From Candidatus Zhuqueibacterota bacterium (GTDB lineage Bacteria; Zhuqueibacterota; Zhuqueibacteria; Thermofontimicrobiales; Thiofontviventaceae), in the NCBI GenBank assembly GCA_016931935.1, contig JAFGDW010000221.1:1-64000 (forward strand): a DNA stretch of 64,000 nucleotides, written 5' to 3'. The position numbers were made by a program, and so were the translations under genes. Positions 23,001 to 61,981 of this stretch are shown here, piece after piece. A model generated the notes under the pieces. That model was not told the DNA's origin, made no database searches, and worked only from the letters and a program-made list of their open reading frames with translations. The stretch's first letter is position 1; every line of letters begins with the position of its first letter.

Positions 23001-26000
23001 TTCCGGAACAGTGACAATAAGCGATGAAACCGGTACCATTACGCCGGCGATAAGCGGTTCGTTTTCCAATGGTGTATGGACAGATAATGTGAAAATTACC
23101 CAGGCGATCACCGGGAACCAAATTACAGTTCAGCGAAGTGGTGGTTCACAAATCGGGACATCAAATGAATTTAATGTGATTTCCAGCACTGTTGACAGAT
23201 TTGTGATCGCTACAATCCCGACATCACAGGTAGCCGGACAGTCGTTCCCCGTGACGATAACAGCGATTGATGCCCAGGGAAATACTGTAACGACGTTTAC
23301 CGGAACCGGTGTGTTGAGTGATGAAACGAATACCGTCAGTCCGACCGAAACCGGTAGTTTCACTGCCGGTGTATGGAGTGGCAATATAACGATCACTAAA
23401 AGTGCAACCGCAAATAATTTAACATTTACCAGCAGCGGAAAGGCTGGCAGTTCAAACGATTTTAACGTATTGCATGCAGCGCTCGATCATTTCAAGTTTG
23501 CCACAGTCAGCAGTCCACAAACGGCTGGATCGAGTTTTGGGGTAGACATCACAGCTCAGGATTTCTATAATAATACCGTTACTGCTTTCAGCTCTACCAT
23601 TAACCTGAGTGATGTAACCGGTACAATTAGTCCGACTGTCAGTGGCAATTTTTCGAGCGGACATTGGGCTGGAACTGTTACTATAACTGAAAGTGGAAAC
23701 GATAATTACATCACAGCAAATGGCGGCGGAGAAACCGGAAGTTCGAACAGCTTCAACGTGATAGCCGGAAGCCTCGCAGGCTTCTCAATTGGCCAGATCA
23801 GCACTCAGGCGGCAGGGCAGCCGTTTTCCATCAGTGTGACCGCGCGGGATGCATTCGGAAATACACGCACGCAATTTACCAGCACCGTGAATATTAGTGA
23901 TTTGACAGGCACGGTGTCGCCGGTTTTGAGCGGTGCTTTTATTCAGGGGCAATGGACGGGCAATGTCGTTGTGACATCAGCCCGTACGGCGAATCAAATT
24001 TCCGTGCAGCGAACAGGCGGCAGCGAAAATGGCACATCTGTACCATTCGATGTGATTTCAAGTACGGTGGACCATTTTACGATCAACGGCATTGCTGATC
24101 CACAAACTGCGGGGACATCTTTTAGTATTACAATTACCGCCAAAGATGCACAAAATAATACTGTTACCGGATTTACCGGCACGGGCTTGCTTACCGACGA
24201 AACCGGAACAATTACTCCGTTATCAACAGGTAGTTTCTCTGCTGGTATGTGGACCGGTAGCGTTACGATAAATAAAAGCATGTTGGATAACAACATCACA
24301 TTTACCAGTAGTGGCAAGGCTGGAACTTCGAATAATTTTGATGTAAATCATGCCGTGCTCGATCATTTTGAATTCACGACTGTTGGTAGTCCACAAGTAG
24401 CCGGAACAAGTTTTAACGTTCAAATTACTGCTAGAGATTTATATGGAAACCGGGTGACATCGTATAATACAACCGCTAATTTGCTGGATGATACCGGCAC
24501 GATCAGTCCAACTGTGACCGGAAATTTCAGTACCGGGCAATGGAACGGCCTGGTGGTTATTACCGCCAGCGGTACGGATGTACAAATCACTGCCAATGGC
24601 GGAAGCAAAAGCGGAACAACCAATAGTTTCAATGTTGTAGCCGCCAATCTGGCGAAATTCTCAATTGCTCCGATCAGCACCCAGGCGGCTGGTCAACCAT
24701 TTTCCATTAGCGTTACGGCGGAAGATACGTACGGAAACACACGTACCCAATATAACGGAAGTGTTAATATCAGTGATTTGACCGGAACGATTGCACCAAC
24801 GCAAAGTGGTAATTTTGCAAATGGTCAGTGGACCGGTAATGTGGTGATCACATCGGCGCGGAATAACAACCAGGTATCAGTGACACGTGTTGGCGGGACA
24901 GAAACCGGGCAGTCGGGCTTGTTTAATGTGATTTCCAGCAATGTTGATCATTTTGACATTAGTTCCGTGACATCGCCAAAAGAGGCGGGCGTTCCCTTTA
25001 GTATAACATTTACTGCAAAAGATGCACAAAATAACACCGTTACCAACTTTACGGGTACTGGCGAAATAAGCGATGAAACAGGTACGATTACTCCAACGGT
25101 TACAGGCGCGTTTTCCAATGGCGTTTGGACAGGCAATGTAACCATCACCCAAAAAATGACGGGTAACTGGATCACCATTACCAGTAGTGGTAAAGCGGGG
25201 ACATCTAATACTTTTACGGTTAGTCCGTCGTCGTTGAACCATTTTCGTTTCGCAGCGTTGGGGAGTCCGCAAACGGCAGGCACCGCGTTTCCGGTAACGA
25301 TTTATGCTGAGGATCAATACAATAATCAGATCAGTTCATTTACAAATACCGTGACATTGGGAGACAATACCGGTACACTTTCACCGACAACAACGGGCAA
25401 CTTTGTTTCCGGGCAATGGTCGGGAAATGTTACCATAACAAAAAGTGCGAGCGATGTCATTATTACTGCCAGTCGCAGTGGGCAGACAGGTTCCACAAAT
25501 TCATTCAACGTGATCGCCGGTGCGTTGCATCATTTCGACCTGGCATCCATAGAATCACAGGCGCCTGGTTCACCGTTCGCAATTACTATTACTGCCAAAG
25601 ATCAAAACAATAATGTTCGCACCCAGTTTAGTGGAACAGTGAATATATCTGATGAAACCGGTACAATATCACCGACAACCAGTGGTAATTTTATTCAGGG
25701 ACAATGGACCGGTAACGTCATTATTAATCAGGCCAGAACCGCCAATCAAATCACGGTTCAGCGTACAGGTGGCTCGGAAACTGGCCAGTCCAATGAATTT
25801 GATGTGATTTCTACCGCGGTCGATCATTTTGATATTAGCAATATTGGTACACCGCGAACAGCAGGTCAGGGCTTTAACGTGACGATTGTGGCGCGTGATG
25901 CACAAAATAATATTGTGCAAAGTTTTAACGGTACAGGCGCGTTATCCGATGAAACCGGAACGTTGACACCAAATGTCACGGGCAGTTTTTCAAATGGAAG

Positions 26001-29000
26001 CTGGACGGGAACCTTAACCGTCACCAAGAGCATTAGCAGCAATAAAATCAGTGTAACCAGCAGCGGCCGCGTTGGAACATCAAATATTTTCACAGTTCAA
26101 CATGGCGCATTAAATCATTTTAAGTTCCAAAATGTCAGCAGTCCGCAAATTGCCGGTACTAATTTTTCCATTACTATTACCGCAGAAGATGCTTATAATA
26201 ACACCGTCACCTCGTTTGTTAGCGATATTGACATGTCCGATAACACACTTACAATATCACCGAGCAAAAGTGGAACGTTCTCAGGTGGTGTATGGACAGG
26301 AAATGTTAACATCACCAAGACAGCTTCGGATGTGGTGATTACAGCATCACGAACCGGAATCACCGGTACGACGAATAGCTTTAATGTCGTGGCCAATACA
26401 TTGCATCATTTTTATGTGCAGCCGATCAGTGCGCAGGCAGCAGGCGAGTCATTTGCAGTTACCGTAGTGGCGCAGGATGTTCATAATAACACACGCACGC
26501 AATTTAGTGGTACGGTAAATATTTCCGATTTGACGGGCACAATTTCGCCAATAGTAAGCAACTCGTTTATAATGGGACAGTGGACGGGCAATGTGGTGAT
26601 TACCTCCGCGATGAACAATAACCGGATAACCGTCACTCGAACTGGTGGTTCAGAAACCGGGGCATCCGGATTGTTCAATGTGATATCGTCCAATGTTGAT
26701 CATTTTGCGATCAGTCAGATAGCATCACCACAAGAAGCCGGGCAATCGTTCGCGTTGACAATTACCGCCAAGGACGCCCAGAATAATACGGTCGTTGGCT
26801 TCAACGAAACCGCCGTTATGAGTGATGAAACCGGGACGTTGCTTCCGACACAAACCGGTAGTTTCACCAATGGTGTATGGACGGGCAATGTAACGGTGAC
26901 GAAAGGTTTCACGAACAACAGTATTACTGTTACAAGTAGCGGTAAAGCTGGAACCTCCAATGATTTCACTGTGGTCCATACCGATTTGCACCATTTCCGA
27001 TTTACAGCCGTGCAGAGTCCGCAAATAGCAGGTACCCCATTCGATATATTAATTTACGCTGAAGACCAATATGATAACCGCGTAACATTGTTTACGGATT
27101 ATGTGAACCTGAGTGATCCGACCGGCACATTGAGTCCGGTGGTGAGCGGCCCGTTCGTCAGTGGCAGTTGGAGCGGACCAGTGACCATAACAACGCGGGC
27201 CACTGATGTAGTGATTTCGGCCAGTCGGTTTGGAATGTCCGGCAGCACAAATTCATTCAATGTCAATGCAGCCGTATTGGAACATTTCGATATCAGTAGC
27301 ATCAGCACACAGGCGCCGGGTGTACCGTTCCCGATCACAATTACGGCTAAAGATCAGTACGGCAATCTACGCACACAGTTTACGGGTACGGTAGGCATTG
27401 TTGATCAGACCGGAACAATTACACCAATAATTAGTGGCGCATTCGTTCAGGGACAATGGACGGGCAATGTAATCGTGACCACAGCTCTTGAAGATAATCA
27501 AATTACAGTAACCCGATCCGGCGGCAGCGAAACCGGTACATCAGCCTCATTTGATGTGGTGTCCAGTGCGGTTGATCATTTTGTGTTTAGTGCAATTTCA
27601 TCTCCACAAGTGGCTGGCACACCGTTCACAGTGACGATTACGGCAAAAGATGCCCAAAATAATACTGTACAGAGCTACAACGGAACCGGCGTGTTGGGTG
27701 ATGATTCCGATGCATTGTCCCCGACTTCAACCGGTAATTTTAATAATGGCGTGTGGGTCGGTAATATCGCTATTACGAAATCAATCTCATCGAATCGAAT
27801 TACTATTACCAGTAGTGGACGGATTGGCACATCGAATGCATTTACCGTTTCGCCGGCTGAATTGCACCACTTTACAATTGCGCAAGTAAGTAGTCCACAG
27901 GTGGCGGGTACAAGTTTTTCAATTAATTTAACAGCACGTGACCAGTATGAAAATCAGGTAACCGCATTTACCGGACAGGCAAATTTAAGCAATGATACCG
28001 GCACGTTGACACCGGTTCAGACTACGGCGTTTACTTCTGGCTCATGGACAGGAACTGTATCGATAACCAGGACCGCCACAGATGACAATATTTATGCAAG
28101 TTACTCTGGAAAACAAGGTACGTCCAATTCATTTAATGTGGTTGCGGCTGCGCTTCATCATTTTACCATGGGGACAATCGGAACGCAGGCCGCTGGCGAG
28201 GCATTCCCGTTATCGTTGACCGCGATGGATAATTATAATAACATTCGGACACAATTTACCGGTACGGTGGATATTTCGGATATTTCGGGCACAATTACGC
28301 CGGTGCGAAGCGGTAATTTTGCTCAGGGTGTCTGGACCGGAAACGTCGTGGTCACGCACACCCAGCAAAATAACCGGATCACCATCACCCGAACAGGCGG
28401 CTCTGAAACCGGGCAGTCAGAATTGTTTAATGTGATCTCCAGCAGTGTGGATCATTTCGATATAAGCACGATTTCGAGTCCCAAAGAAGCCGGGACGCCA
28501 TTCGCCCTGACAATCGTTGCCCGCGATGCCCAGAACAATGTGGTCACTGATTTTAACGGTATCGGTGTGTTGAAAGATGAAACCGGCACGATTTCACCGG
28601 CGCAAACAAGTAATTTTAGCAATGGTAGCTGGACGGGTAACGTGACAATTACGAAGAGCCTGGTTAACAATACGATTACATTCACCAGCAGTGGCAAAGC
28701 CGGATTGTCCAATGAATTTAATGTCGTTCATACGGATTTGAATCATTTTAAAGTGTCTTCGATAACCAGTCCGCAAATTGCCGGTGCGTCATTTCTGCTG
28801 ACAATTACTGCAGAAGATCAATTTAATAATACAGTCACATCATATAATACATTTGTCACCTTAAGTGAGCAAACCGGAACGATATCACCGAGCACGACCA
28901 CGAATTTTACGAATGGTGTCTGGTCGAGCCTGGTATCGATTACCAAAGCGCAGAGTGATATTTATATTACCGCAACGGGTTCCGGAAAGAGCAGCCAATC

Positions 29001-32000
29001 CAATTTGTTTAATGTTGTAGCTGGCTCATTACAAAGTTTTGAAATTGCTTACCTGAGTACTCAGGCTGCTGGCGAACCGTTTGCCCTGAATGTGACCGCA
29101 CTCGATAATTATGGAAATGTGGCAACATCGTTTAGTGGAACAGTAGATATTTCGGACAAAACCGGAACGATTGATCCCGCCATCAGCAGTAATTTCGCTG
29201 CCGGAAAGTGGACCGGCAATGTGAGTATTTCCCAGGTTCGTACGGATAACGAAATTACAGTTAAACAAACAGGCGGAACGCGTACCGGTGTTTCCAATAA
29301 ATTTAATGTCATTTCTAGCAATGTCGATCATTTTGTGATTAATCCGGTATCGTCGCCACAGACCTCCGGACAGAGTTTTTCCATCATAATTACTGCTAAA
29401 GATAAAGATAATAATACTGCTACCAGCTTTACCGGCACGGCGACATTGTCCGATTTGAGCGGCGCCATTGCACCAACAACTACCAGTAATTTTGTGGCGG
29501 GTGTATGGAACGGCAGTGTAGCGATTAGCAAAAGCTGGACGGATAACATCATCACCGTGACCAGCAGCGGCAAGGCCGGGAATTCAAACACATTTAATGT
29601 AGCGCCCGGCAGTCTGGATCATTTCCGGATTTCGTCGATTGCCAGTCCGCAAGTGGCGGGCAATACGTTTGCGATTACCGTGTATGCGGAAGATCAGTAT
29701 GATAATACCGTTACTGGGTATAGCGGTTCTGTGCAAGTATCCGATAATACAAATACGATTTCACCGACATCAAGCGGAAATTTCTCGAACGGTCGTTGGA
29801 CGGCTAACGTGTTCATCACAAAAAGCCAAAGTGATGTTCGGATTAATGTCTCGGGAAGCGGTAAAGCAGGACAGTCAAATAGTTTCAATATTACTGCCGC
29901 CGATTTGGATCATTTCACGGTAGCATCGTTGACAACCCAGGCGGCAGGTGAACCATTTCCGATTACCGTGACGGCGCTGGACCGGTACAACAATATCGCG
30001 ACGGCGTTTGCAAGTACGGTAGACATTAGCGATTTGACAAATACAATCACACCGACCCGGAGCGATGCATTTGCCGCAGGCGTGTGGAAGGGTAATGTTT
30101 CGATTAAAGTGGTTCGCGAGGATGACCGGATTACCGTCCGCCATACCGGCGGCACCAAAACCGGTGAATCCAATTTATTCGATGTAATTTCAAGCAATGT
30201 CGATCATTTTGATATCGCCCAGATTCCTACTGTTCAAATCGCCGGCCAAATATTCCCGATTACGGTCACCGCGAAGGATGCCGAAAGCAACACGGTAACA
30301 AGCTTCACCGGCACGGTGACTTTGACGGATTTGACCAGCACGATTTATCCAACATCAACACCGGCGTTTGTGAATGGAACCTGGACCGGAACCGTGCGCA
30401 TTACCAAAGCCCGTGATGTCAACCGGATAACTGCAACGGCGTTAGGCAAGGCAGGTGTTTCCAACGAATTCAAGGTGCAACATGCTGCGCTCGATCATTA
30501 TGCCATTGAAGCGATTGCCAGTCCGCAAACCGCGGGCAAGGGCTTCCTGATGAAAATCACCGCTCAGGATGCGATGTTGAATACGGTGGAAAACTTCACA
30601 ACAAACGTTACCTTGTCAGACAATACCGGAACGCTATCGCCAAATACGACGGGCAATTTTATCAGTGGTGTCTGGAGCGATTCTGTCCGTGTCACTAAAA
30701 GCCAGACAGACGTTCAGATTACCGCCACACGCTCGGGTATTACCGGTGTTTCCAATCGGTTTTATGTGAAGCCCAACAAGGTGCATCATTTAACAATTCG
30801 CGATGCTGCCAGTGGCACCGGTCAGGATATTTTGGACCGAACCCTGTCGCTAGACGAGTCGATGAAATTATACGCCGCCGGCTATGACAAGTATAATAAT
30901 TATGTTCGCGAAGTGCCGTCCAACTGGCACGTAGTCGGTACGCTTGATCAGCCGACGCCAATACTCGGTGAATGGACAATCTTCGATCCGCAGACGCCGG
31001 GAACAAGCGGGCAAATTGTCGCTGACAGTACGTCGCTGATTTCCGCTGCAACCGGCACAATTACCGTGGGCGCGATATCTTTCGTTCGGGTGTTAACCAG
31101 TCCGGGCGGAAACGGTCTTGAACTTAGCGATACTACTCTGACTGCAGATGATGAAATCACCTTGTATTGTGCTGGTTTCGATGAACGTGGCAACTACATT
31201 GGCGATGTGGTTGGATACTGGAAAACGATCGGTACGCTGCAACCGGCAATCGCTGATAGCAGCACGTGGATTCGTTTCAATCCGACCAAAGCGCCGCGCA
31301 ATGGAAAAATAGCAGTGACGCATTCGATTGCCAAGGGGGATACCTCGGGTGTTATTACTGTGAAGCCAGGGCGGCCTGTTAGCGACATCACGCTTGTGGC
31401 AACACCGGCAGCTTTAACCGCAGATACGACCAGTCTGGCATCGATCACATCGGGTGTTATTTTTGATGCGGATGCCAATCCGGTCGCTAAAAATACGCTA
31501 TTTACTGTGCATACTGATCTTGGTACCATCACGACGCCTGATGCCAGCGCATTATACCCCGGCATTCAGATAGCCGCGAATGATTCCGGAAAAATTTCAT
31601 TCGTACTGAAAGCTCCGTCAAACGGCGGCATTGCGCATATTAATGTAAGCTGTCCGGATGGAAGCGCGACGGGATTTGTCAATATTCCGATTGCCAGTTT
31701 GAAAATTTTAACAGTGTCGAGCGTACTGCCAACTGTCTCGCTTGGTCAGAAGGCTGTTCCCGTCAATATTACGGTTAAAAACCTGGGAACCATTTCCATC
31801 CAAAACCTGGATGCCGAACTGGTATTTACCGGGCCGCCACCTACGTCACAAAATTGGAAAGACGATTTCCCGAAAATTATCCGAACCGATACCTACACCA
31901 CCATTCCGGCGGGCGCTACCCGTACATTGTCGTTTGCTGTGGATGTTAGTATTTCGGCTCACGTGGATACCGTGAGTATCGATGCAATTGTTTCCGGTTC

Positions 32001-35000
32001 AATGAATGGCGTCACTGTCACCGACGATTCTGCTGATGTTGTCGATACATGGATTGTTCAACAACCCGCACAATTAGTCATTCAAAAAATTTCATCACCG
32101 CAGGATTCGGTATCACAGGGTCAGGAAAATGTGCTGGTATCGATGATCGTGAGAAATATGGGACAGGCAGCCGCGTTGGTAGATTCCGATACCTTGCACA
32201 TGCATTTGTTACCGCAATTAACCGATGTGACTTCGGAATACGATATTATCTCTCTGCCATCGAATCCGGTGACGGTGTTGGGTGATACAACGGTTGAGCT
32301 ACGGTTTTATGTCAGCATAATGCCACAGGCAACGAAGGGAAATATTAAAGTGGATGGCCGGGTATTTGGCCGCGATAAAAATTCCGAAAAAGCAATTTCG
32401 GACAGTAGCGCGGAAGATTCGACACAGCTATGGGTCGTTAAAGAAGCGCCATTGGTCGGAGTTCAGTCAGTGGTGCCATCGCAGCAGGAAGTATCGCAGG
32501 GACAGCAAGTGCCGTGGCATTTAATGATTAAAGCGTTTAACGAAGGCGGTACCGCTGTTAGATTGGATAGCGTACGTTCCCGATTCTTGTCAGCCGGTAC
32601 CGATGTGACTACAGAATATACACTGCAGTACGAAAACAAATTTATAGCAAGTAATACGAACCTGCTGGCCGGAAAGACTGTCGATTCGTTTCGCGTAAAT
32701 GTAGCAAAAACCGGTGTCACCCAAGGCCCGATAACAATCATGTCTACGATTTATTTCACAGACATGGGCAGTAGCAAGCCGATTATTCGGCAGGTTAATG
32801 CGGGTATTACCGTGAAGAAACCAGCACAAATTCAAATAGTAAGATTACTTCCGTCTCAACCGGAAGTGACGGCGAATATGGCGCAGGACTGGTATGTAAC
32901 GGCGGTGCTGCAAAATAATGGTGGATCGGATATAAGAATATCAACTCATAAAGACAGCACCAAACTCACATTCAGTTTTGGCGAAAATTACATCATCAAA
33001 CAGCCGGATTCATTGGCCAACGGCGGCTTCATTCTTAGTCCGCTCGAAACGGATTCGCTGCGATTTTTAATCGACGGTACCGGAATGAATTTGTATGGGG
33101 ATGTTAGTGGTATTGCCTACATGGATGCAATTGTTTCCGGGACTGAATTGTTAACCGGCACACCTGTTCAGGCAGAACGCAAATACCTCGATAGCGTGAA
33201 GGTGGAAGAAGTTGCGCGGGCAGAGATTGTGGATGTGAAAGTAAACGCGCAGTCATTTAACGGGCGCAGGGTGAATACCAATCAGCAGTTCAAAATTGAT
33301 GTTACCGTTAAAAATAATGGAGAGGATGCACTGAAGACGACATGGATTGGATTGAAATCAAATGGGCCGTCACTGACAAAACCATTGGTGCAGCCATTGA
33401 ATCTGTTAATAAAATCGAAACAATCCGCTGTAAAAACGCTTATTCTGAATGCGGCTGCGACGCCGCAAGCTGGCGAAATTTTCACAGCGTATCTGGATAG
33501 CGCAGTTGCTGAAAATACAAATGAACCCGGTGGAGTTGAATTCCTGCCATCAGTGGATTCAACAGAAACGATGATTATTCAGACGCCGGCGAATATAGAA
33601 GTTATGAATATTATCACGCCGACAACAATTCGCGCCGGGCAAGTCGGAACATGGCCGATAAAGGCCGTCCTCAAAAATTCCGGTCAGGCTGGCGCCGATT
33701 TAATGCTGAGCACGACCCGGCTTTTTGTAGAAATTAATGGAAATGAGGCCGTGGACTATCGGATACTAAAACCTGCGGCATTGGTTGGCGGAGGCGTTCG
33801 GCTGAGCGAAGCTGAAGTTGATACACTCATCTTTAGCGTCACAGCAACCGGAAATCAATCCGGAAATGTCCTGATAAAAACCGAAATTGCGAGTATTGAT
33901 ATTAATAATCAAACGCAAACCACTGTTCCGTTCCAGAAAGAGATAACCATTCTTCCATCTGCGGCGGTTCGGTTGTTATCCACCAGAATCAAATCATTAA
34001 ATTACGATCCAGTGGATAAGGAAATTGGTCTGGTGAACCAGGGTCAGGCGTTTGCCGTTGTCGCAGTAGTTGAAAATAATAGCCGGGTACAAATTGATTC
34101 GGTGAAAGCGCACATTGCGACCCAGGGCGGATCAGCAATTGCGCAACAGGATCAAGTGATTGCGGCCATCGGTTATGGCAAGAGTGATAGCTTGATTTTC
34201 AATATCACGGCAAATTCACTGAATGATGTTGCAGAACGCGTTGAATTTTTTACGGTAAATTTGGTATCCGCAAAAGAGCATAGTAGTGGCGCACAGGCTT
34301 CGTTGGATAATACCGGCGATGTGGAAGCCGCCGTTAAAATTCAGCGAGCGGCACAGTTGGCTGTTCACGCTGAAACCGGCACTGGCGACACCATTTTTAC
34401 AATCAATCAGACATTTGATTTGAACGTGTCGATTGCAAACGCCGGGAAAGCTGGCGTGTATGATAAAGCCACCGTTCGAATTATGGCGCCTGATAATTAC
34501 CAAATTATTACCGCCACTGACACAATATCCGGTTTTGCTGAGCAGACAATTGAAAAAAACACTGTCGCGACATGGCAAATTATTACACCAGCGAGTGAGT
34601 CATCATTGGATTCGATTTTTGCATTGATAACCAGTCCGTTCCGCGATATGAATACTCAGCAGGCTGCGGCTATCGTGCGCCAGCAAGATACGTTGCTTGT
34701 CAACACATCGGCAACGGATTTAATCTGGAACACTGCTATCACGAGTCCGGAAGGGGCGAAAGATAGCGTACTTTCAACCCAACAAGATTTTACGATAAGC
34801 TCAACGATTCAATATTCAGATAATCTTGACAGTGTTAATGTTAAGTTGGAAATTCCCGGTGGGTACTCATTCCGTTCGGGATACAGCAGCCAGGTGAACA
34901 AAGTAGAAAATCTAAAACCGGTAAACTGGAATATAATAGCGCCTACACGCGCTAATCTGAATCCGGTATATGTGCCGATCACAGTGCGAGCGCTTGAAAA

Positions 35001-36981
35001 AGGAAGTCCGCCCATCGAATTAATTTATAAAGATTCACTCAAAATTCAAACCGTTTCTCGGGCAGAACTTAAACTGGATATCGCTATACCTGATATTCAG
35101 GATTTTAATATTGATGAAGAAAATGTACTTTCTCAAAATCAACCATTTACCGTACGGGCAACGGTTTCCAATCGAGGGCATGCTGGATTGATCGGATCGG
35201 GCAAACTGCGGTTGGATGTCGGTAACACGGGTTGTATACTGGATGCGGATACACTTGCTGTTCAGGCGTTTATGGTAAATGAACCGGTTGAATGGTCATT
35301 GATTGCACCGGAGCAAGTAACAGATGTTCAGAATATGATCATAACAATTGATCAACGGCTGCAAGATGAAAACACGAACAAAGACGCGGCGGTCGTCACC
35401 GGTGAAGATACAAAAGTTATCGCCATTTCCACCCAGGAAGGTGGCGATCTCACGAATACGATTGCGATCACCGAACCGAATGGCGCGACCGACAGAATCT
35501 TGTCTACATTTCAACAGTTTAAAGTACAGGCAACAGTATCCTCATCACGAATAAATAATCGGTTGGCCACCATATTCGTGCCACCGGGATTCGCATTGGC
35601 GCCGGGTGTTCAAAATCCACAAGCGGTCGCTAGTGGCTTAAGCCAGAAAGTAGAGTGGCTCGTGATCGCACCCACCGATTCTGCTTCAAACATGGAATTA
35701 AAAATGGTCACGGTGGGGTATGATGCCAGTAGCGGTGAACAGATTGTTGCTGACACGGCGCGGGTAAATGTGGATGTTGTTCAGCGGGCAAATGGCCGAT
35801 TGAAAGCGGCAATCATTACTCCGGAACAGGCAGTCAATAGCGGTGTGGTTTCTACCAGTCAGGTATTTGTTGTGGATGCCTATTTAATAAATCATGGCGA
35901 GGCCAATTTTACTGACACGTATGGCCTGCAAATGTCGTTGCCAACGGGATACACAACGGAAAACCTGATTAAGACTGCGCCTGTTGGTTCCCATATTCAG
36001 TGGGAAATTACAGCGCCGGCCAATGCACGTACGGCGGCCAATATAAATATTAGTCTGCCATTATCGAGTCGCCCGAAGGATGAAAATACCAATGCAGCCG
36101 CTTTCTTCGTACCGGATTCATCGGTGCAAAGCATTACGATTACGACAATTGAGAAGAGCGTGCTTGTAAGTGTTCTCCCCAACCGGACACCGAACAAAGT
36201 ATCCAACGGTGACAAAGCAGTCTCGATGTTAGGATTGGTATTTGACAACCATGAAAAGCAATCCAACCCCGTTATTTTGCACGGAATGCAGGTGAAAATA
36301 ACTGATCGTAGTGGTAAAGCGATTTCCGATCCGCGAAAAGCGATCAGTCGAATTGCCATCGTCGACTACAATCACCCAACATTTATTTTGGGCCAGGTGA
36401 CGTCAATTCCCGAGCAACCGGAGATTAATATTGTATTTTCGACGCCGGACACAATTGGCGCCGCGATGACGGATTCACTCGATATTGTTGTTGATATTGC
36501 ACAACAGGCCACATTAAAAGATGTGATGGTCACCATCGAATCCAGCGATAAGATCGATCTGGTTGAAATGCACACCACCAAACGTCCCGTAATTAAAACG
36601 CCGGAAGGCAATACCGGGACGGCATTAAACTTAAAATCAGATTATGTCGTATTGATGGCTGCGAATTTGGAGAAAGCGTTCGGAAATTATCCGAATCCGT
36701 TTGGCACTTCTGATCGCCCGACAACAACAATTACATACTATCTGAAACAGGATGCCGATGTCCAGATTTCGATTTTCACTCTGTTGGGTGAACTGGTGTG
36801 GTCACGTTCGTACAAATCAACAGAACCGCAAGGCCAGCAGGGATCGCACGATGTCGACAATGCCATCACGTGGGATGCCCGCAACGATCGGGGCGCTGTG
36901 GTTCTTAACGGTATTTATGTTGCTTATATTAAAACCAGCTATGGTGAAACCGCAGTTACTAAAATTGCTGTTGTGAAGTGA
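20038..36981 (+). CDS. giant exported repeat protein (5,647 residues) with 35 Ig-like repeats and a C-terminal sorting-type domain
   Basis: A signal-peptide-like hydrophobic segment (residues about 22-40, ending AGQARA) precedes a unique N-terminal domain to residue 177. Residues 178-3,581 are 35 tandem repeats of about 97 residues. Each begins with hydrophobic-[DHN]-H-F, contains AG..F.I.I.A.D...N, a TGT.[ST]P centre and G.W.GNV.I, and ends SN.FNV. Two related domains follow (near 3,582-3,778, with WHVVGTL and WKTIGTL), then an invasin/Big-1-like domain and about a dozen CARDB-like or similar beta-sandwich units (3,887 to about 5,540). The end is a domain with NYPNPFG at 5,550 and a type IX secretion or FlgD-like fold. 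It is probably a cell-surface or secreted fibre or adhesin of about 0.6 MDa. The start ATG lacks a clear ribosome binding site. A terminator follows. No secretion or processing gene is adjacent. Confidence 0.9.
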   Translation: MKSLHYNTRSVELFITSRQLWPLFIGGLILILAGQARAGELSSVTVNPLTPAAGVQSVYQLEFTTSDTGNGTASGLPIDGQVLLTFPVGFNVSSVLVATMSGNRAVNPTIVSPTELILTRDSTGTAVDTIQSVLVLLANITNSQTASSFTINVETQTADSIQIDTGISAPFLINAGELHHFQFDPILDQIANTQFTINIQAQDRYNNLVNTFVSSANLSDKTGTITPQTTTNFISGLWSGNVRVTQTYSNNTITATSGNAAGTSNTFNIGAGTVHHFTFETINSPQTAGTSFGVTITARDQLGNKATGFTGTVILSDNTSSISPTKSGAFVNGEWSGNVTITKKQSDVYINARNNGSQGNSNLFNVNAAALDHFLVSNIGDQTAGTPFYLHLTALDDYNNIVDTFTGTVNILDQTGTIQPTTSSAFSSGQWSGDVTILATRVNNIITVQRTGGSEMGSSAGFNVNAGALDHFVIGNIGTQTAGVNFSVSITAKDVHNNTITTFGETASLSDVTGTLSPGVTGSFTSGVWNGSVQIAKAQSGVTITAASSGKSTTSNSFTVNAGALNRFTISNISSPQVARQSFSITIRAEDQFGNKRTQFTDFVNLTDETGTLTPGTTSNFSAGEWNGSVVITQSHDDVTITASRSGITGSSNAFNVQHSALDHFEISSISTQAAGEPFIVTVIAQDFDNNTVESFSGTVSMTDLTGTLSPSTSGNFVNGIWSGNVTISNTRTSNRIAVVRTGGSEDGESNSFDVVAGEVDHFRISSITTPKTAGTAFQITITAEDGNNSRVTNFTGTVGLTDLTGTISPKTTGNFIAGVWTGNVNITESITSNKITASGSGRSGESNTFEVLAASVHHYNIATIASPQTAGQNFNISITAKDQYENTVKSFTGTVNLSDPTGSLTPAISGNFSAGVRTQSVQITSAASNVTITATQGSAAGTSNVFNINPGTLNHFSIANVSTQQAGVPFAITVKAEDQFNNIQTQFSGTVTISDETGTITPAISGSFSNGVWTDNVKITQAITGNQITVQRSGGSQIGTSNEFNVISSTVDRFVIATIPTSQVAGQSFPVTITAIDAQGNTVTTFTGTGVLSDETNTVSPTETGSFTAGVWSGNITITKSATANNLTFTSSGKAGSSNDFNVLHAALDHFKFATVSSPQTAGSSFGVDITAQDFYNNTVTAFSSTINLSDVTGTISPTVSGNFSSGHWAGTVTITESGNDNYITANGGGETGSSNSFNVIAGSLAGFSIGQISTQAAGQPFSISVTARDAFGNTRTQFTSTVNISDLTGTVSPVLSGAFIQGQWTGNVVVTSARTANQISVQRTGGSENGTSVPFDVISSTVDHFTINGIADPQTAGTSFSITITAKDAQNNTVTGFTGTGLLTDETGTITPLSTGSFSAGMWTGSVTINKSMLDNNITFTSSGKAGTSNNFDVNHAVLDHFEFTTVGSPQVAGTSFNVQITARDLYGNRVTSYNTTANLLDDTGTISPTVTGNFSTGQWNGLVVITASGTDVQITANGGSKSGTTNSFNVVAANLAKFSIAPISTQAAGQPFSISVTAEDTYGNTRTQYNGSVNISDLTGTIAPTQSGNFANGQWTGNVVITSARNNNQVSVTRVGGTETGQSGLFNVISSNVDHFDISSVTSPKEAGVPFSITFTAKDAQNNTVTNFTGTGEISDETGTITPTVTGAFSNGVWTGNVTITQKMTGNWITITSSGKAGTSNTFTVSPSSLNHFRFAALGSPQTAGTAFPVTIYAEDQYNNQISSFTNTVTLGDNTGTLSPTTTGNFVSGQWSGNVTITKSASDVIITASRSGQTGSTNSFNVIAGALHHFDLASIESQAPGSPFAITITAKDQNNNVRTQFSGTVNISDETGTISPTTSGNFIQGQWTGNVIINQARTANQITVQRTGGSETGQSNEFDVISTAVDHFDISNIGTPRTAGQGFNVTIVARDAQNNIVQSFNGTGALSDETGTLTPNVTGSFSNGSWTGTLTVTKSISSNKISVTSSGRVGTSNIFTVQHGALNHFKFQNVSSPQIAGTNFSITITAEDAYNNTVTSFVSDIDMSDNTLTISPSKSGTFSGGVWTGNVNITKTASDVVITASRTGITGTTNSFNVVANTLHHFYVQPISAQAAGESFAVTVVAQDVHNNTRTQFSGTVNISDLTGTISPIVSNSFIMGQWTGNVVITSAMNNNRITVTRTGGSETGASGLFNVISSNVDHFAISQIASPQEAGQSFALTITAKDAQNNTVVGFNETAVMSDETGTLLPTQTGSFTNGVWTGNVTVTKGFTNNSITVTSSGKAGTSNDFTVVHTDLHHFRFTAVQSPQIAGTPFDILIYAEDQYDNRVTLFTDYVNLSDPTGTLSPVVSGPFVSGSWSGPVTITTRATDVVISASRFGMSGSTNSFNVNAAVLEHFDISSISTQAPGVPFPITITAKDQYGNLRTQFTGTVGIVDQTGTITPIISGAFVQGQWTGNVIVTTALEDNQITVTRSGGSETGTSASFDVVSSAVDHFVFSAISSPQVAGTPFTVTITAKDAQNNTVQSYNGTGVLGDDSDALSPTSTGNFNNGVWVGNIAITKSISSNRITITSSGRIGTSNAFTVSPAELHHFTIAQVSSPQVAGTSFSINLTARDQYENQVTAFTGQANLSNDTGTLTPVQTTAFTSGSWTGTVSITRTATDDNIYASYSGKQGTSNSFNVVAAALHHFTMGTIGTQAAGEAFPLSLTAMDNYNNIRTQFTGTVDISDISGTITPVRSGNFAQGVWTGNVVVTHTQQNNRITITRTGGSETGQSELFNVISSSVDHFDISTISSPKEAGTPFALTIVARDAQNNVVTDFNGIGVLKDETGTISPAQTSNFSNGSWTGNVTITKSLVNNTITFTSSGKAGLSNEFNVVHTDLNHFKVSSITSPQIAGASFLLTITAEDQFNNTVTSYNTFVTLSEQTGTISPSTTTNFTNGVWSSLVSITKAQSDIYITATGSGKSSQSNLFNVVAGSLQSFEIAYLSTQAAGEPFALNVTALDNYGNVATSFSGTVDISDKTGTIDPAISSNFAAGKWTGNVSISQVRTDNEITVKQTGGTRTGVSNKFNVISSNVDHFVINPVSSPQTSGQSFSIIITAKDKDNNTATSFTGTATLSDLSGAIAPTTTSNFVAGVWNGSVAISKSWTDNIITVTSSGKAGNSNTFNVAPGSLDHFRISSIASPQVAGNTFAITVYAEDQYDNTVTGYSGSVQVSDNTNTISPTSSGNFSNGRWTANVFITKSQSDVRINVSGSGKAGQSNSFNITAADLDHFTVASLTTQAAGEPFPITVTALDRYNNIATAFASTVDISDLTNTITPTRSDAFAAGVWKGNVSIKVVREDDRITVRHTGGTKTGESNLFDVISSNVDHFDIAQIPTVQIAGQIFPITVTAKDAESNTVTSFTGTVTLTDLTSTIYPTSTPAFVNGTWTGTVRITKARDVNRITATALGKAGVSNEFKVQHAALDHYAIEAIASPQTAGKGFLMKITAQDAMLNTVENFTTNVTLSDNTGTLSPNTTGNFISGVWSDSVRVTKSQTDVQITATRSGITGVSNRFYVKPNKVHHLTIRDAASGTGQDILDRTLSLDESMKLYAAGYDKYNNYVREVPSNWHVVGTLDQPTPILGEWTIFDPQTPGTSGQIVADSTSLISAATGTITVGAISFVRVLTSPGGNGLELSDTTLTADDEITLYCAGFDERGNYIGDVVGYWKTIGTLQPAIADSSTWIRFNPTKAPRNGKIAVTHSIAKGDTSGVITVKPGRPVSDITLVATPAALTADTTSLASITSGVIFDADANPVAKNTLFTVHTDLGTITTPDASALYPGIQIAANDSGKISFVLKAPSNGGIAHINVSCPDGSATGFVNIPIASLKILTVSSVLPTVSLGQKAVPVNITVKNLGTISIQNLDAELVFTGPPPTSQNWKDDFPKIIRTDTYTTIPAGATRTLSFAVDVSISAHVDTVSIDAIVSGSMNGVTVTDDSADVVDTWIVQQPAQLVIQKISSPQDSVSQGQENVLVSMIVRNMGQAAALVDSDTLHMHLLPQLTDVTSEYDIISLPSNPVTVLGDTTVELRFYVSIMPQATKGNIKVDGRVFGRDKNSEKAISDSSAEDSTQLWVVKEAPLVGVQSVVPSQQEVSQGQQVPWHLMIKAFNEGGTAVRLDSVRSRFLSAGTDVTTEYTLQYENKFIASNTNLLAGKTVDSFRVNVAKTGVTQGPITIMSTIYFTDMGSSKPIIRQVNAGITVKKPAQIQIVRLLPSQPEVTANMAQDWYVTAVLQNNGGSDIRISTHKDSTKLTFSFGENYIIKQPDSLANGGFILSPLETDSLRFLIDGTGMNLYGDVSGIAYMDAIVSGTELLTGTPVQAERKYLDSVKVEEVARAEIVDVKVNAQSFNGRRVNTNQQFKIDVTVKNNGEDALKTTWIGLKSNGPSLTKPLVQPLNLLIKSKQSAVKTLILNAAATPQAGEIFTAYLDSAVAENTNEPGGVEFLPSVDSTETMIIQTPANIEVMNIITPTTIRAGQVGTWPIKAVLKNSGQAGADLMLSTTRLFVEINGNEAVDYRILKPAALVGGGVRLSEAEVDTLIFSVTATGNQSGNVLIKTEIASIDINNQTQTTVPFQKEITILPSAAVRLLSTRIKSLNYDPVDKEIGLVNQGQAFAVVAVVENNSRVQIDSVKAHIATQGGSAIAQQDQVIAAIGYGKSDSLIFNITANSLNDVAERVEFFTVNLVSAKEHSSGAQASLDNTGDVEAAVKIQRAAQLAVHAETGTGDTIFTINQTFDLNVSIANAGKAGVYDKATVRIMAPDNYQIITATDTISGFAEQTIEKNTVATWQIITPASESSLDSIFALITSPFRDMNTQQAAAIVRQQDTLLVNTSATDLIWNTAITSPEGAKDSVLSTQQDFTISSTIQYSDNLDSVNVKLEIPGGYSFRSGYSSQVNKVENLKPVNWNIIAPTRANLNPVYVPITVRALEKGSPPIELIYKDSLKIQTVSRAELKLDIAIPDIQDFNIDEENVLSQNQPFTVRATVSNRGHAGLIGSGKLRLDVGNTGCILDADTLAVQAFMVNEPVEWSLIAPEQVTDVQNMIITIDQRLQDENTNKDAAVVTGEDTKVIAISTQEGGDLTNTIAITEPNGATDRILSTFQQFKVQATVSSSRINNRLATIFVPPGFALAPGVQNPQAVASGLSQKVEWLVIAPTDSASNMELKMVTVGYDASSGEQIVADTARVNVDVVQRANGRLKAAIITPEQAVNSGVVSTSQVFVVDAYLINHGEANFTDTYGLQMSLPTGYTTENLIKTAPVGSHIQWEITAPANARTAANINISLPLSSRPKDENTNAAAFFVPDSSVQSITITTIEKSVLVSVLPNRTPNKVSNGDKAVSMLGLVFDNHEKQSNPVILHGMQVKITDRSGKAISDPRKAISRIAIVDYNHPTFILGQVTSIPEQPEINIVFSTPDTIGAAMTDSLDIVVDIAQQATLKDVMVTIESSDKIDLVEMHTTKRPVIKTPEGNTGTALNLKSDYVVLMAANLEKAFGNYPNPFGTSDRPTTTITYYLKQDADVQISIFTLLGELVWSRSYKSTEPQGQQGSHDVDNAITWDARNDRGAVVLNGIYVAYIKTSYGETAVTKIAVVK
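20569..30780 (+). repeat. 35 in-frame tandem repeats arranged as three-domain higher-order units of 876 nt
   Basis: Units start at a hydrophobic codon before [D/H/N]-HF. The first two are 96 and 97 codons, then comes a 291-codon triplet (21148-22020). From 22021 to 30780 ten triplets of exactly 292 codons (98+97+97) follow, starting at 22021, 22897, 23773, 24649, 25525, 26401, 27277, 28153, 29029 and 29905. Within a triplet the first unit carries TGGSETG-like and ST.AAG.PF words, the second KDAQNNTV and SSGKAG.SN, the third ED.YNN and SDV.ITASRSG. The tryptophan of G.W is present in 34 of 35 units. The DNA has diverged between copies far more than the spacing. Confidence 0.93.
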
Positions 36982-37455: not shown

Positions 37456-39546
37456 ATGTTTACATTTCTAAATACTTCCATCCTTACCGGATTGCTTGCA
37501 ATCAGCATCCCACTGCTAATTCATTTATTAACCAAAAAAAAAGTTAAAAGGATTGATTTTAGCAGTCTCTATTTTCTGAAGGAATTAAAAACCCAGAAAA
37601 TCCGGCGCATTAAAATCCGCCAAATATTATTGATGATTATCCGTACATTGATCATTTTGTTTTTAATTTTGGCGTTTGCACGCCCGACATTAAAAGGAAC
37701 GTTATCACCAGTTGTGGGAAATAAGGCAAAAACATCAGCCGTGATGATAATCGACAATAGCATGAGCATGGGGCGCATGGTTCGGGGACGTTCGATGTTT
37801 GAAATAGTGCGGGAGAAGGTACGGCAATTAGAAAATGTTTTCGCTGACGGAGATGAACTTTATGCGATTACTGTGAGTCCCGGTACACCACCGGTATATC
37901 CCGACGCCCGATACCAACCCGCTGCTATGGAAAAAGCGGTTACCTCGCTCGATGTGTCTGAAGAGTCCACGGATATTATCGCAGCGTTGCTGCGGGCAAA
38001 GGAATTACTCGATCAATCACACAATATCAATAAAGAAGTCTATCTGTTTTCCGATGTGCAGCGCTCCGGATTTCTGGGACTGGAAACAGTCGTGAATCCG
38101 ATTTTTGAGGGCACGGATATTCGAATATTTGTACAACCGATAACGTCGATTGGCTCGAGCAATCTGACAATATCCGATGTCAAACTAAAAAATCAGATCA
38201 TCGAAAAAGGTAAACTGGTAGAAGTCGAAGTGACCATCAGTAACACGGGTGTTGTGGAAGAGACAAACAAGCTGGTGCAGCTTTTTATTGATGAAAAACG
38301 CTCAGCGCAGGCGACAGTCCAGTTGAAACCAGGAGAAAGACAGCGACTTTCATTTAAAATAATTCCCGATAAATCCAGACTAATTTCCGGGTCCGTTTTA
38401 CTTGATGACGATGATTTATCGCTGGACAATCGGCGTTATTTTGTGTTTTATGTGCCTGATAAAATAAAAGTACTCCTTGTCGGCACGGAGCAAAAAGACA
38501 TACAATTTTTGAAAATTGCTATCGGAGTTTCTCCGAATATTCAGAGTCAGGAAAAACTGGCTTCACAGCTAATTTCGGGCTGCTTTGACGGTAGCGATGT
38601 GGTGATTCTTTCCAATGTTGCCCGAATGAGCGAAGGCATTCGTCATGAACTGATTCAGTTCGTTGATCAGGGCAACGGACTAATTATCGCTCCCGGCGCA
38701 AATATGGATTTGGAATATTATAATACATGGTTAAATGAACCACTATCACTGCCGGAATTTATCAATCAAATTGGTGAGCCTGATAACCAGCAATCGTTTA
38801 TGTCGTTCGGCAAGATCGATTTTTCGCATCCGATTTTTCAGGGAATGTTTGATGAGAAGCCGGAATCAGTCGATTCTCCTCTTTTATTTGCAGCGTTGGC
38901 GATGAAAAATAACAGCAAAGCACAGGTCATTGTGGAACTCTCGAATCACATTCCCTTTTTAATTGAGTCGCGGGCGGAACGAGGACACGTACAGTTTTTT
39001 AACACAACGATGAATGGCGACTGGTCTGATTTTCCTATTAAGGGCGTGTTTGTCCCAATGATAAACCGCTCGGTGTTATACCTTTCCGGTTCGACCGAAC
39101 GCATGGATCGTGATCGGCTTATTCAAAATACGCTGGCTGTTTCCATGGCGAATAGTACGGATGTGACGGATTTGGTCATCCAAAAACCGGATGAAAGCAA
39201 ACATAAAGTCAAACCGGAAATAAATGATAGTCAATATCAAGTTTCCTTTGGTGAGACGGACGAAACCGGTTTTTACCAATTGTATTCCGGTGATGATAGA
39301 ATCGACATGTGGGCGGTAAATTTTGAACCTACTGAATCTGAATATCAACCGATTGAAACGGATAAATTGGTGCAACTGATTGGGGAAGATCGTGCTGTGG
39401 TTCTAAATGACAAGCAACTTATCGCCGAGCAGGTGACGACATCGCGATACGGCCGCGAACTATGGAAGGCTGCGGTGTTGTTGGTATTCGTTCTGTTGAT
39501 CGGAGAGATGATTATTGGGCGTGAGGGAGAAAAGGCTTCAAAGTAA
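37456..39546 (+). CDS. BatA-like membrane protein with von Willebrand factor A domain
   Basis: The 696-residue protein opens with the BatA N-terminal double-membrane-segment domain: hydrophobic residues 4-24, a basic loop with KKKVKRIDFSSLYFLKELK, and a second segment near residues 56-76 ending FARPTLKG. A von Willebrand A-type domain follows with a metal-site-like D-N-S-M-S (residues near 100), then a CARDB-like beta domain and a region with VLLVGTEQKDIQFLKIAIG and LIIAPGANMDLEYY that resembles amidotransferase-like folds. A last membrane helix lies near residues 672-692. Such proteins are encoded with MoxR, DUF58, DUF4159 and DUF4175 genes in related phyla; here it stands alone, 26 kb from the DUF4159 and DUF4175-like pair. 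It is probably part of a MoxR-dependent envelope complex. Confidence 0.85.
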   Translation: MFTFLNTSILTGLLAISIPLLIHLLTKKKVKRIDFSSLYFLKELKTQKIRRIKIRQILLMIIRTLIILFLILAFARPTLKGTLSPVVGNKAKTSAVMIIDNSMSMGRMVRGRSMFEIVREKVRQLENVFADGDELYAITVSPGTPPVYPDARYQPAAMEKAVTSLDVSEESTDIIAALLRAKELLDQSHNINKEVYLFSDVQRSGFLGLETVVNPIFEGTDIRIFVQPITSIGSSNLTISDVKLKNQIIEKGKLVEVEVTISNTGVVEETNKLVQLFIDEKRSAQATVQLKPGERQRLSFKIIPDKSRLISGSVLLDDDDLSLDNRRYFVFYVPDKIKVLLVGTEQKDIQFLKIAIGVSPNIQSQEKLASQLISGCFDGSDVVILSNVARMSEGIRHELIQFVDQGNGLIIAPGANMDLEYYNTWLNEPLSLPEFINQIGEPDNQQSFMSFGKIDFSHPIFQGMFDEKPESVDSPLLFAALAMKNNSKAQVIVELSNHIPFLIESRAERGHVQFFNTTMNGDWSDFPIKGVFVPMINRSVLYLSGSTERMDRDRLIQNTLAVSMANSTDVTDLVIQKPDESKHKVKPEINDSQYQVSFGETDETGFYQLYSGDDRIDMWAVNFEPTESEYQPIETDKLVQLIGEDRAVVLNDKQLIAEQVTTSRYGRELWKAAVLLVFVLLIGEMIIGREGEKASK

Positions 39547-39636
39547 TTTGTTATCAGCTTTAATTCAATTGTAACCATTGCTCATGTAGTCCGACTATCC
39601 TGTTTCGTCTGCAAAATTAGTACAGGTTATGACGTT

Positions 39637-39703
39637 GTCTGAGCTTGCCGTCTTGCACCGGCGTATCGTTCCGATGCATCGGAACACGAACGGTGTTGAA
39701 GGC
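39637..39703 (-). repeat. 67-bp palindrome-centred repeat, family A, copy 2 (inverted)
   Basis: This is the reverse complement of 44-110 with only a few differences, including the 18-bp palindrome GTTCCGATGCATCGGAAC at 39668-39685. It lies in the 438-bp gap between the BatA-like gene and hflX. Confidence 0.8.
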
Positions 39704-39730
39704 AACAAAACAGCCAACTTTGGTGAATGT

Positions 39731-39757
39731 GTCGGCTTCGACAGGCTCAGCCGACGG
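39731..39757. repeat. short palindromic repeat, family B-like
   Basis: GTCGGCTTCGACAGGCTCAGCCGAC: the outer GTCGGC/GCCGAC arms pair, and the interior carries the family B word CTTCGACAGGCTCAG. It sits about 30 bp after the family A copy in the same gap. Nothing else was recognised in this gap apart from the beginning of hflX. Confidence 0.55.
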
Positions 39758-39984
39758 CTTGATTCTATGATATAGTGCATTCTCCGTTTCCTGACTTTAC
39801 GATTTAATCGGATTCAGGAAGAATGTCGAAATCACCGTGAGTATAAATGAATGCGATTCCGGTATGCTCCGGCACATCCATCTTTTGCGTGATTCGCCAT
39901 TATCAATTCACAATTTTCCATTCTCAATTTTAAATTTCTTGAGAAATACAGAGTTTTTAAAAATATATTTATTGTGGAGGTCCC

Positions 39985-41271
39985 CTGAAGGGAGAATATC
40001 AATTTATAAATAAAATTATCCGTGAAAAAGCAGTACTTGTCGGCGTTGTCCATCAACATCAGGATCGTGAAACGGTGCAGGAGCATATTGATGAATTAAG
40101 ATTCCTTTCCGATACTGCGGGACTTGATGTTGCCGCCACAGAAATTCAAGATCGCAAAACCATCGATCCAACGTTTTATATCGGCAAGGGCAAAGTAAAC
40201 ATGTTGGCAGAGGTGGTGAATGAAACGAACGCTGACGTGATTGTTTTTGATGATGAATTATCGCCAGCACAAATGCGTAATATTGAAAAAATATGCAAAG
40301 TGCGGGTGCTGGATCGGAATAATATCATTCTTGATATATTCGCGCGGCGCGCTCAAACAAAAGAAGCCAAAACCCAGGTGGAACTGGCGCAGCTTCAGTA
40401 CCTGTTACCGCGATTAACACGAATGTGGACTCACTTGTCCCGGCAAACGGGCAATGCCGGTGTCGGCTTGCGTGGGCCGGGAGAAAAGCAGCTCGAAGTC
40501 GACCGTCGATTGGTTGGAAAGCAAATTGCCAAATTGAAGCTGGAGCTGGAAAAAATTGAACGTCAGCGTGATGTACGTCGTAAGCACCGGGATGATTTCT
40601 ACAAAGTTGCGCTGCTCGGGTATACAAATGTCGGTAAATCCACATTACTCAATACACTAACCCAGGCTGATGTTTTTGTAGAGGACCGTCTGTTTGCAAC
40701 CCTTGATTCCACAGTGAGAAAACTGCCCACGAATGGCGGGTACAAAATTCTGGTGAGCGATACGGTCGGTTTCATCCGAAAATTACCTCATCATTTGGTT
40801 GCCTCGTTTCGCAGTACATTGGAAGAAACCAGAGAAGCGGATTTACTGTTGCATGTGATCGATATCAGTTCTCCTTCATTTATAGAACAAATGGAAACAG
40901 TCCGGCAAGTAATGAAAGATCTGAAAATTGATGATAAGCCGGTGCTTAATGTTTTTAATAAAATTGACCGTTGCAGCGATGACGTCAATGTTGCCATGAT
41001 CCGGGAAGATTATAAACCGTGTGTTGTTATTTCGGCGCAGCGAAACATCTTTATTAATGAACTCAAACAGAAAATAGTCGAATTCGCCAGCCGAAAGATT
41101 GTGCAGATGGATGTATCGTTACCAATTGAGCGTCAAAAAGATATTGCCCGGTTGTACAGCCTGACCCGTGTTTTGCATAAGTCGTTCGAAAATGAACATG
41201 TGCATTTGCGAATACAAATTCCACCGGAGCGACTCTCGCTTGTTCGGGAAATTGTGGGACAGGAGATATAA
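39985..41271 (+). CDS. hflX: ribosome-associated GTPase HflX, apparent CTG start
   Basis: HflX is a GTPase that binds 50S subunits and rescues or splits stalled ribosomes. The protein has the HflX N-terminal domain (IGKGKVNMLAE, DDELSPAQMRN, LDIFARRAQTKEAKTQVELAQL), the glycine-rich GNAGVGLRGPGEKQLEVDRR, and a G domain with GYTNVGKST, DTVGFIRKLP and NKID. The in-frame GTG at 40075 is too late: the 15-20 codons before it read KAVLVGVVHQHQDRETV, clearly the conserved first strand of the family. Between the upstream stop at 39958 and 40075 there is no in-frame ATG, GTG or TTG. A CTG at 39985, 4 bp after GGAGG (39976-39980), is the best candidate; an AUU at 40015 is another. The catalytic regions are intact, so the gene is probably functional. 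Confidence 0.9.
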   Translation: MKGEYQFINKIIREKAVLVGVVHQHQDRETVQEHIDELRFLSDTAGLDVAATEIQDRKTIDPTFYIGKGKVNMLAEVVNETNADVIVFDDELSPAQMRNIEKICKVRVLDRNNIILDIFARRAQTKEAKTQVELAQLQYLLPRLTRMWTHLSRQTGNAGVGLRGPGEKQLEVDRRLVGKQIAKLKLELEKIERQRDVRRKHRDDFYKVALLGYTNVGKSTLLNTLTQADVFVEDRLFATLDSTVRKLPTNGGYKILVSDTVGFIRKLPHHLVASFRSTLEETREADLLLHVIDISSPSFIEQMETVRQVMKDLKIDDKPVLNVFNKIDRCSDDVNVAMIREDYKPCVVISAQRNIFINELKQKIVEFASRKIVQMDVSLPIERQKDIARLYSLTRVLHKSFENEHVHLRIQIPPERLSLVREIVGQEI

Positions 41272-61925: not shown

Positions 61926-61981
61926 TAGGCCGATGCATCGGAATGACACGCCTGTGCGAGACGGCAAGCTCAGTCGATGCT
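61926..61981 (+). repeat. palindrome-centred repeat, family A, copy 3 (partial)
   Basis: CCGATGCATCGG (61930-61941) followed by CGCCTGTGCGAGACGGCAAGCTCAG repeats the second half of the copy at 44-110. It lies in the same gap as the preceding family B variant. Confidence 0.75.

Follow-up and report, generated by a model that had tools for sequence, protein, structure and literature searches.

The hflX gene of a Zhuqueibacterota bacterium probably starts at a rare codon, most likely CTG

The hflX gene in the stretch of DNA analysed here (the window: 64,000 nucleotides, positions 1 to 64,000 of contig JAFGDW010000221.1) is probably intact and translated from a codon other than ATG, GTG or TTG that lies upstream of position 40024. 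The CTG at 39985 is the most likely start and the ATA at 40006 comes second. The product is an HflX-family GTPase, a predicted ribosome-splitting enzyme. The features of the region are as follows.

37456-39546, forward strand: gene for a BatA/VWA-like protein, of the kind normally found upstream of hflX in relatives (PF07584, PF13519; tblastn in relatives)
39621-39800, no strand assigned: one copy of a dispersed repeat, lying in the space that separates the BatA-like gene from hflX (the genome has at least 40 scored places, counting this one)
39958-39960, forward strand: TAA, in-frame upstream stop, read from the sequence
39976-39980, forward strand: GGAGG, Shine-Dalgarno (SD) candidate 4 nt before the CTG
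39985-39987, forward strand: CTG, likeliest start codon (SD score 16 with GGAGGT, spacing 4; duplex -10.0 kcal/mol)
39985-41271, forward strand: hflX read from the CTG, 428 amino acids plus stop, no internal stops (TIGR03156; Pfam GTP-bdg_N, GTP-bdg_M, MMR_HSR1)
39988-39994, forward strand: AAGGGAG, possible SD 11 nt before the ATA (locus L036 has AAGGGA 4 nt before its ATG)
40006-40008, forward strand: ATA, second start candidate (SD score 11; duplex -8.4 kcal/mol), at the position of the TTG of L008-L012
40075-40077, forward strand: GTG, first usual in-frame start, which would remove the conserved first strand (duplex -4.1 kcal/mol; AGGA about 8 nt upstream)

The hflX frame was read directly and rescanned with a script. 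After the TAA at 39958-39960 it runs AAA TAT ATT TAT TGT GGA GGT CCC CTG (39985) AAG GGA GAA TAT CAA TTT ATA (40006) AAT AAA ATT ATC CGT GAA AAA GCA, and no ATG, GTG or TTG occurs until the GTG at 40075. The protein scored 456.8 bits against the HflX profile TIGR03156 (curated cut-off 216.75), covering profile positions 1-349 of 351. Profile position 1 falls on residue 15 of the CTG-started protein, the match of the genome search starts at 40027, and the alignment to E. coli HflX (PDB 5ady) begins at residue 14. The conserved protein therefore starts upstream of 40075, with an onset at 40024-40027, that is 48-51 nt before the GTG. When codons 14-30 were compared with those of the nearest relative, L036, 4 were identical, 6 synonymous and 7 non-synonymous, and the N-terminal residues fit the pattern of the relatives' HflX; hence this stretch is coding. 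The original prediction had stated that the frame lacks a usual start back to the stop at 39958, that the conserved N-terminus is encoded upstream of the GTG and that GGAGG precedes the CTG by 4 bp, and all of this was borne out. Its alternative, a start-codon mutation that shortened the protein, is disfavoured, since the sequence for the N-terminal strand remains coding and conserved.

Five rare codons are candidates in the frame: ATT 39967, CTG 39985, ATA 40006, ATT 40015 and ATC 40018. By SD score and duplex energy the CTG is the best and the ATA the next, with the GTG at 40075 behind both in duplex energy (-10.0, -8.4 and -4.1 kcal/mol), in line with the predicted start at "CTG or another rare codon". 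The usual anti-SD was assumed in these calculations, as a search of this draft genome did not recover the 16S 3' end. Among 291 scored starts of the genome, a spacing of 4 nt was found in 44 and of 11 nt in 8; the scoring penalises no spacing from 4 to 10, so these counts are a mild guide only. Of 5000 dinucleotide shuffles of 39961-40026, 1.2% contained an in-frame CTG, ATT, ATA or ATC whose SD score reached 16 or more at a spacing of 4-9.

The strongest competitor is a start at the ATA, served by AAGGGAG, at the place occupied by TTG in five genomes of the order. In these five, L008-L012, the TTG stands six codons before a conserved Glu, exactly the distance of ATA 40006 (L037, the sixth member of their family, has an ATG eleven codons before it), and the positions of AAGGGAG and of the AAGGGA in L036 nearly coincide. 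AUA starts are known from S. aureus infC and ccpN (PMC13009471), and era of L164 probably has one as well. However, the SD of the ATA is weaker than that of the CTG and its spacing of 11 is rare in this genome. Moreover, both relatives from the window's own family begin further upstream, with an ATG nine codons (L036) and sixteen codons (L007) before the Glu, and L007 resembles the window upstream of the ATA (VLLNRVIRE versus QFINKIIRE). We consider the ATA a possible but unlikely start and keep the CTG as the preferred one.

To place the window among its relatives, hflX starts were located by homology, with the conserved Glu as the anchor, in 76 of the phylum's 77 genomes with a hit to TIGR03156; G050 was excluded because its match lacks the N-terminus. 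Together with 12 loci of other phyla this gave 88 loci, and with L021 and L253 lying at contig edges 86 were assessable. No second genome of the species was found: none was close among 12 related loci, and no second member of the genus turned up in the search of 60 relatives. Ranked by SD, the best usual start was ATG in 30 loci, TTG in 37, GTG in 12 and none in 7. ATG was absent within 25 codons in 48/86 hflX loci versus 23/138 control loci (obg 6/48, der 8/60, era 9/30; Fisher p = 1.5e-9, a guide since the rows are related). This supersedes a preliminary count over fewer rows, limited to 30 codons, in which ATG was absent in 27/54 assessable relatives. None of the three usual starts was found in 7/86 hflX loci versus 3/138 controls (obg 0/48, der 1/60, era 2/30; p = 0.047, marginal, with related rows). 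The control loci were the best-scoring 30 per family plus added loci, for era the best-scoring 30 only; the fragments L273 and L274 were excluded, and L293 lies at an edge.

The seven hflX genes without a usual start are those of the window, L241, L242, L245, L066, L068 and L069, each with a Shine-Dalgarno sequence before CTG or AUU/AUC. In L241, L242 and L245, from other classes of the phylum, an ATC ten codons before the anchor is followed by TAT or TAC and preceded by AAGGAG, AAGGA or AGGAG; L242 and L245 are two species of one genus and have the ATC start in common. In the Dehalococcoidia L066, L068 and L069, GGAGG is followed by two codons and then ATT. Further likely rare starts occur where a usual codon exists elsewhere in the frame: ATT in L250, L236 and L067 and in the Fibrobacterota L064 and L065, ATC in L072 (SD score 20), and in L248 a CTG that stands directly after the upstream stop and is preceded by AAGGAG. 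Tyr or His often follows the start, be it ATG, TTG, ATC or ATT, and this supports reading the codons as one homologous start. At corresponding places, the Dehalococcoidia L070 and L071 read GGGGGT ATG AAT ACG and GGGGGT ATT ATT ACT, respectively.

On an HflX tree of 85 rows (L245 was too short) the rare label required 11 changes versus 15.7 in shuffles, with 0/500 as low. Groups with the label lie in the Dehalococcoidia, in the Fibrobacterota and in the phylum's other classes; the label includes the weak members L007, L018 and L032, and the shuffles show clustering only. In the strict set we distinguish three lineages, namely the window, L241 with L242, and the Dehalococcoidia. A rare codon whose SD was better by 3 was found in 26/86 hflX loci versus 7/138 controls (p = 4e-7), a criterion set post hoc and given no weight. 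Weak members of that set have a TTG or ATG in the next codon (L034, L040, L045, L048, L052) or two codons on (L050), or a usable ATG (L007, L018, L032, L054). In the comparison with relatives that had been proposed, TTG, ATC and ATT starts recur, the CTG is conserved as the start in no other hflX of the order, and both family relatives, L036 and L007, have ATG. The view of the window hflX as one odd gene did not hold, since weak hflX starts are common in the phylum and starts of the AUU/AUC/CUG type, 7/86 in the strict count, recur in other classes and phyla.

infC, the textbook AUU-start gene, served as the positive control. Its best-scoring 30 loci (L294-L323; 75 of 81 genomes had a match) were run through the same script as hflX. 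No usual start was found in 23/30, and a rare codon with a better SD won in 27/30; the best rare codon was ATT in 24 and ATC in 6, nearly always behind a strong SD. The method therefore recovers a true rare-start gene, and the phylum shows the infC pattern. In the draft genome that contains the window, no infC was found. That rare starts are exclusive to hflX was rejected, as era (2/30) and der (1/60) also include loci without usual starts. In era of L155 (G041) AAGGAG is followed after 7 nt by ATC, and the congener L158 has ATG GAT at a similar place; in era of L164 (G043) GGAG is followed after 6 nt by ATA, the sole usual codon being a TTG 30 codons upstream. In der of L271 (G073) GGAGG, 4 nt and CTG form the layout of the window hflX.

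Relaxed start codons throughout the genome of this organism were likewise rejected at the depth tested, with 299 long ORFs in 455,813 bases (the window and 20 further stretches). The chosen starts were ATG in 257, TTG in 23, GTG in 13 and none in 6. Rare codons were not enriched behind SDs, with observed versus expected numbers in the 299 ORFs of 2/4.9 for CTG, 4/11.7 for ATT, 5/5.8 for ATC and 7/5.3 for ATA. Among six rare-codon candidates listed, three (L184, L186, L199) have an ATG adjacent to the rare codon. Apart from these counts, a signal-peptide-like ORF (KKLWFAICIFLSLAS...) at L197 5904-6311 opens directly after a stop without a start codon and ends early; perhaps it is a broken gene or reflects a base error.

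A base error in the draft genome could also hide an ordinary ATG in hflX, for example at 39985, and the rare start would then be an artefact. The analysis covered a single assembly of the species, the CTG is one base away from ATG, and other frames of the genome look interrupted (L197 5904-6311, L195 8137-8700). Yet the hflX frame has no other defect, and rare hflX starts recur in independent genomes (ATC in L242/L245, ATT in three Dehalococcoidia). We therefore regard such an error as improbable and retain the rare start, preferably the CTG.

Upstream of hflX, most of the fetched loci have a relative of the BatA/VWA-like gene (tblastn), whose stop often lies near or past the hflX start. The two genes are 19 nt apart in L036 and overlap by ATGA in L007. 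In the window they are separated by a gap of 438 nt with the dispersed repeat, and this repeat-bearing gap is absent from both relatives. Further copies of the intergenic repeat lie at 39-114 and 61930-61973 of the window, and several genome copies lie at contig ends. The window also contains, at 20038-36981, an ORF of 5647 amino acids composed of many modules that resemble one another and follow the pattern HFxIxxIxxPQxAGxxFxIxITAxDxxxN; no Pfam family matched the first 1333 amino acids at E 1e-5. A structured leader or known RNA element was rejected, with no Rfam match exceeding its gathering score (best E 0.98). Folding around the start was not more stable than in shuffled sequences (z from 0.46 to 0.57), and promoter signals were within chance (3 found versus 1.5 +/- 1.3 in shuffles).

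The insertion of the repeat might have damaged hflX, leaving a truncated HflX from the GTG at 40075, with its AGGA about 8 nt upstream, or a decaying gene. This is very unlikely: the frame stays open over 428 codons and scores strongly against the family profile, coding is preserved in the first conserved segment, and the SD pairing at the GTG amounts to only -4.1 kcal/mol.

If hflX starts at the CTG, the initiator fMet-tRNA would read the CUG with the aid of the SD. CUG is reported to make up about 0.024% of bacterial start codons and to give about 0.86% of the AUG output (PMC11497404). As CUG initiation is far below AUG efficiency, little HflX would be made. IF3 represses initiation at codons other than ATG, GTG and TTG, with infC as the well-characterised case, and only a very small number of natural genes with rare starts have been studied so far (PMC5472188). 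Since IF3 rejects such codons, HflX output would probably rise when free IF3 runs short. Low synthesis of HflX is likely and its repression by IF3 possible; the predicted "low or regulated" synthesis is plausible.

Several relatives offer an additional route. In L241, L242, L245, L248, L066, L068, L069 and L072 the upstream stop is followed by the hflX start at a distance of 0 to 26 nt. Because the weak start is at or just after this stop, ribosomes that end the upstream gene would probably feed it by translational coupling. These loci resemble the overlapping termination-reinitiation gene pairs of PMC10666635, where coupling is said to require very short intergenic distances. In contrast, the window hflX is 438 nt away and its coupling to the BatA-like gene has probably been lost; the repeat-bearing gap would be what removed it in this genome.

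Known rare-start genes share some of these properties. Like hflX, infC (IF3; AUU, AUC or AUA start) encodes a translation factor and combines an SD with a start codon disfavoured by IF3. Autoregulation of infC is documented (PMC5472188), whereas control of hflX is putative, and the hflX start varies among relatives (ATG, TTG, GTG, ATT, ATC, CTG). Streptomyces sigR, with an IF3-repressed GTC start, is likewise an individual regulatory gene that has low output and a rare start codon, but its codon and function differ and it was tested experimentally (PMC5472188). S. aureus ccpN (AUA) and cvfC1 (AUU) have in common with hflX a rare start, an extended SD motif and that standard annotation overlooked them; they are other genes, demonstrated by ribosome profiling and reporters (PMC13009471).

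In the open literature searched, no paper was found that joins hflX to an AUU/ATT start, and none for other rare-start terms among the matches listed; subscription journals were outside the scope. Rare hflX starts would be hidden by gene finders because only ATG, GTG and TTG are called. If hflX repeatedly uses rare codons, the N-termini of HflX are probably misannotated in many genomes, and a link between IF3 and ribosome splitting becomes testable. The weak or very rare starts of the window and its relatives probably keep the enzyme scarce, and harm from excess HflX, if true, would account for the pattern. Tentatively, and with a good deal of doubt, hflX may follow infC as the second widespread gene for a translation factor in which selection across several phyla keeps the start (UUG, AUU, AUC, CUG) weak or IF3-discriminated. 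If so, IF3 would set the level of a ribosome-splitting GTPase and tie ribosome splitting to the supply of free IF3.
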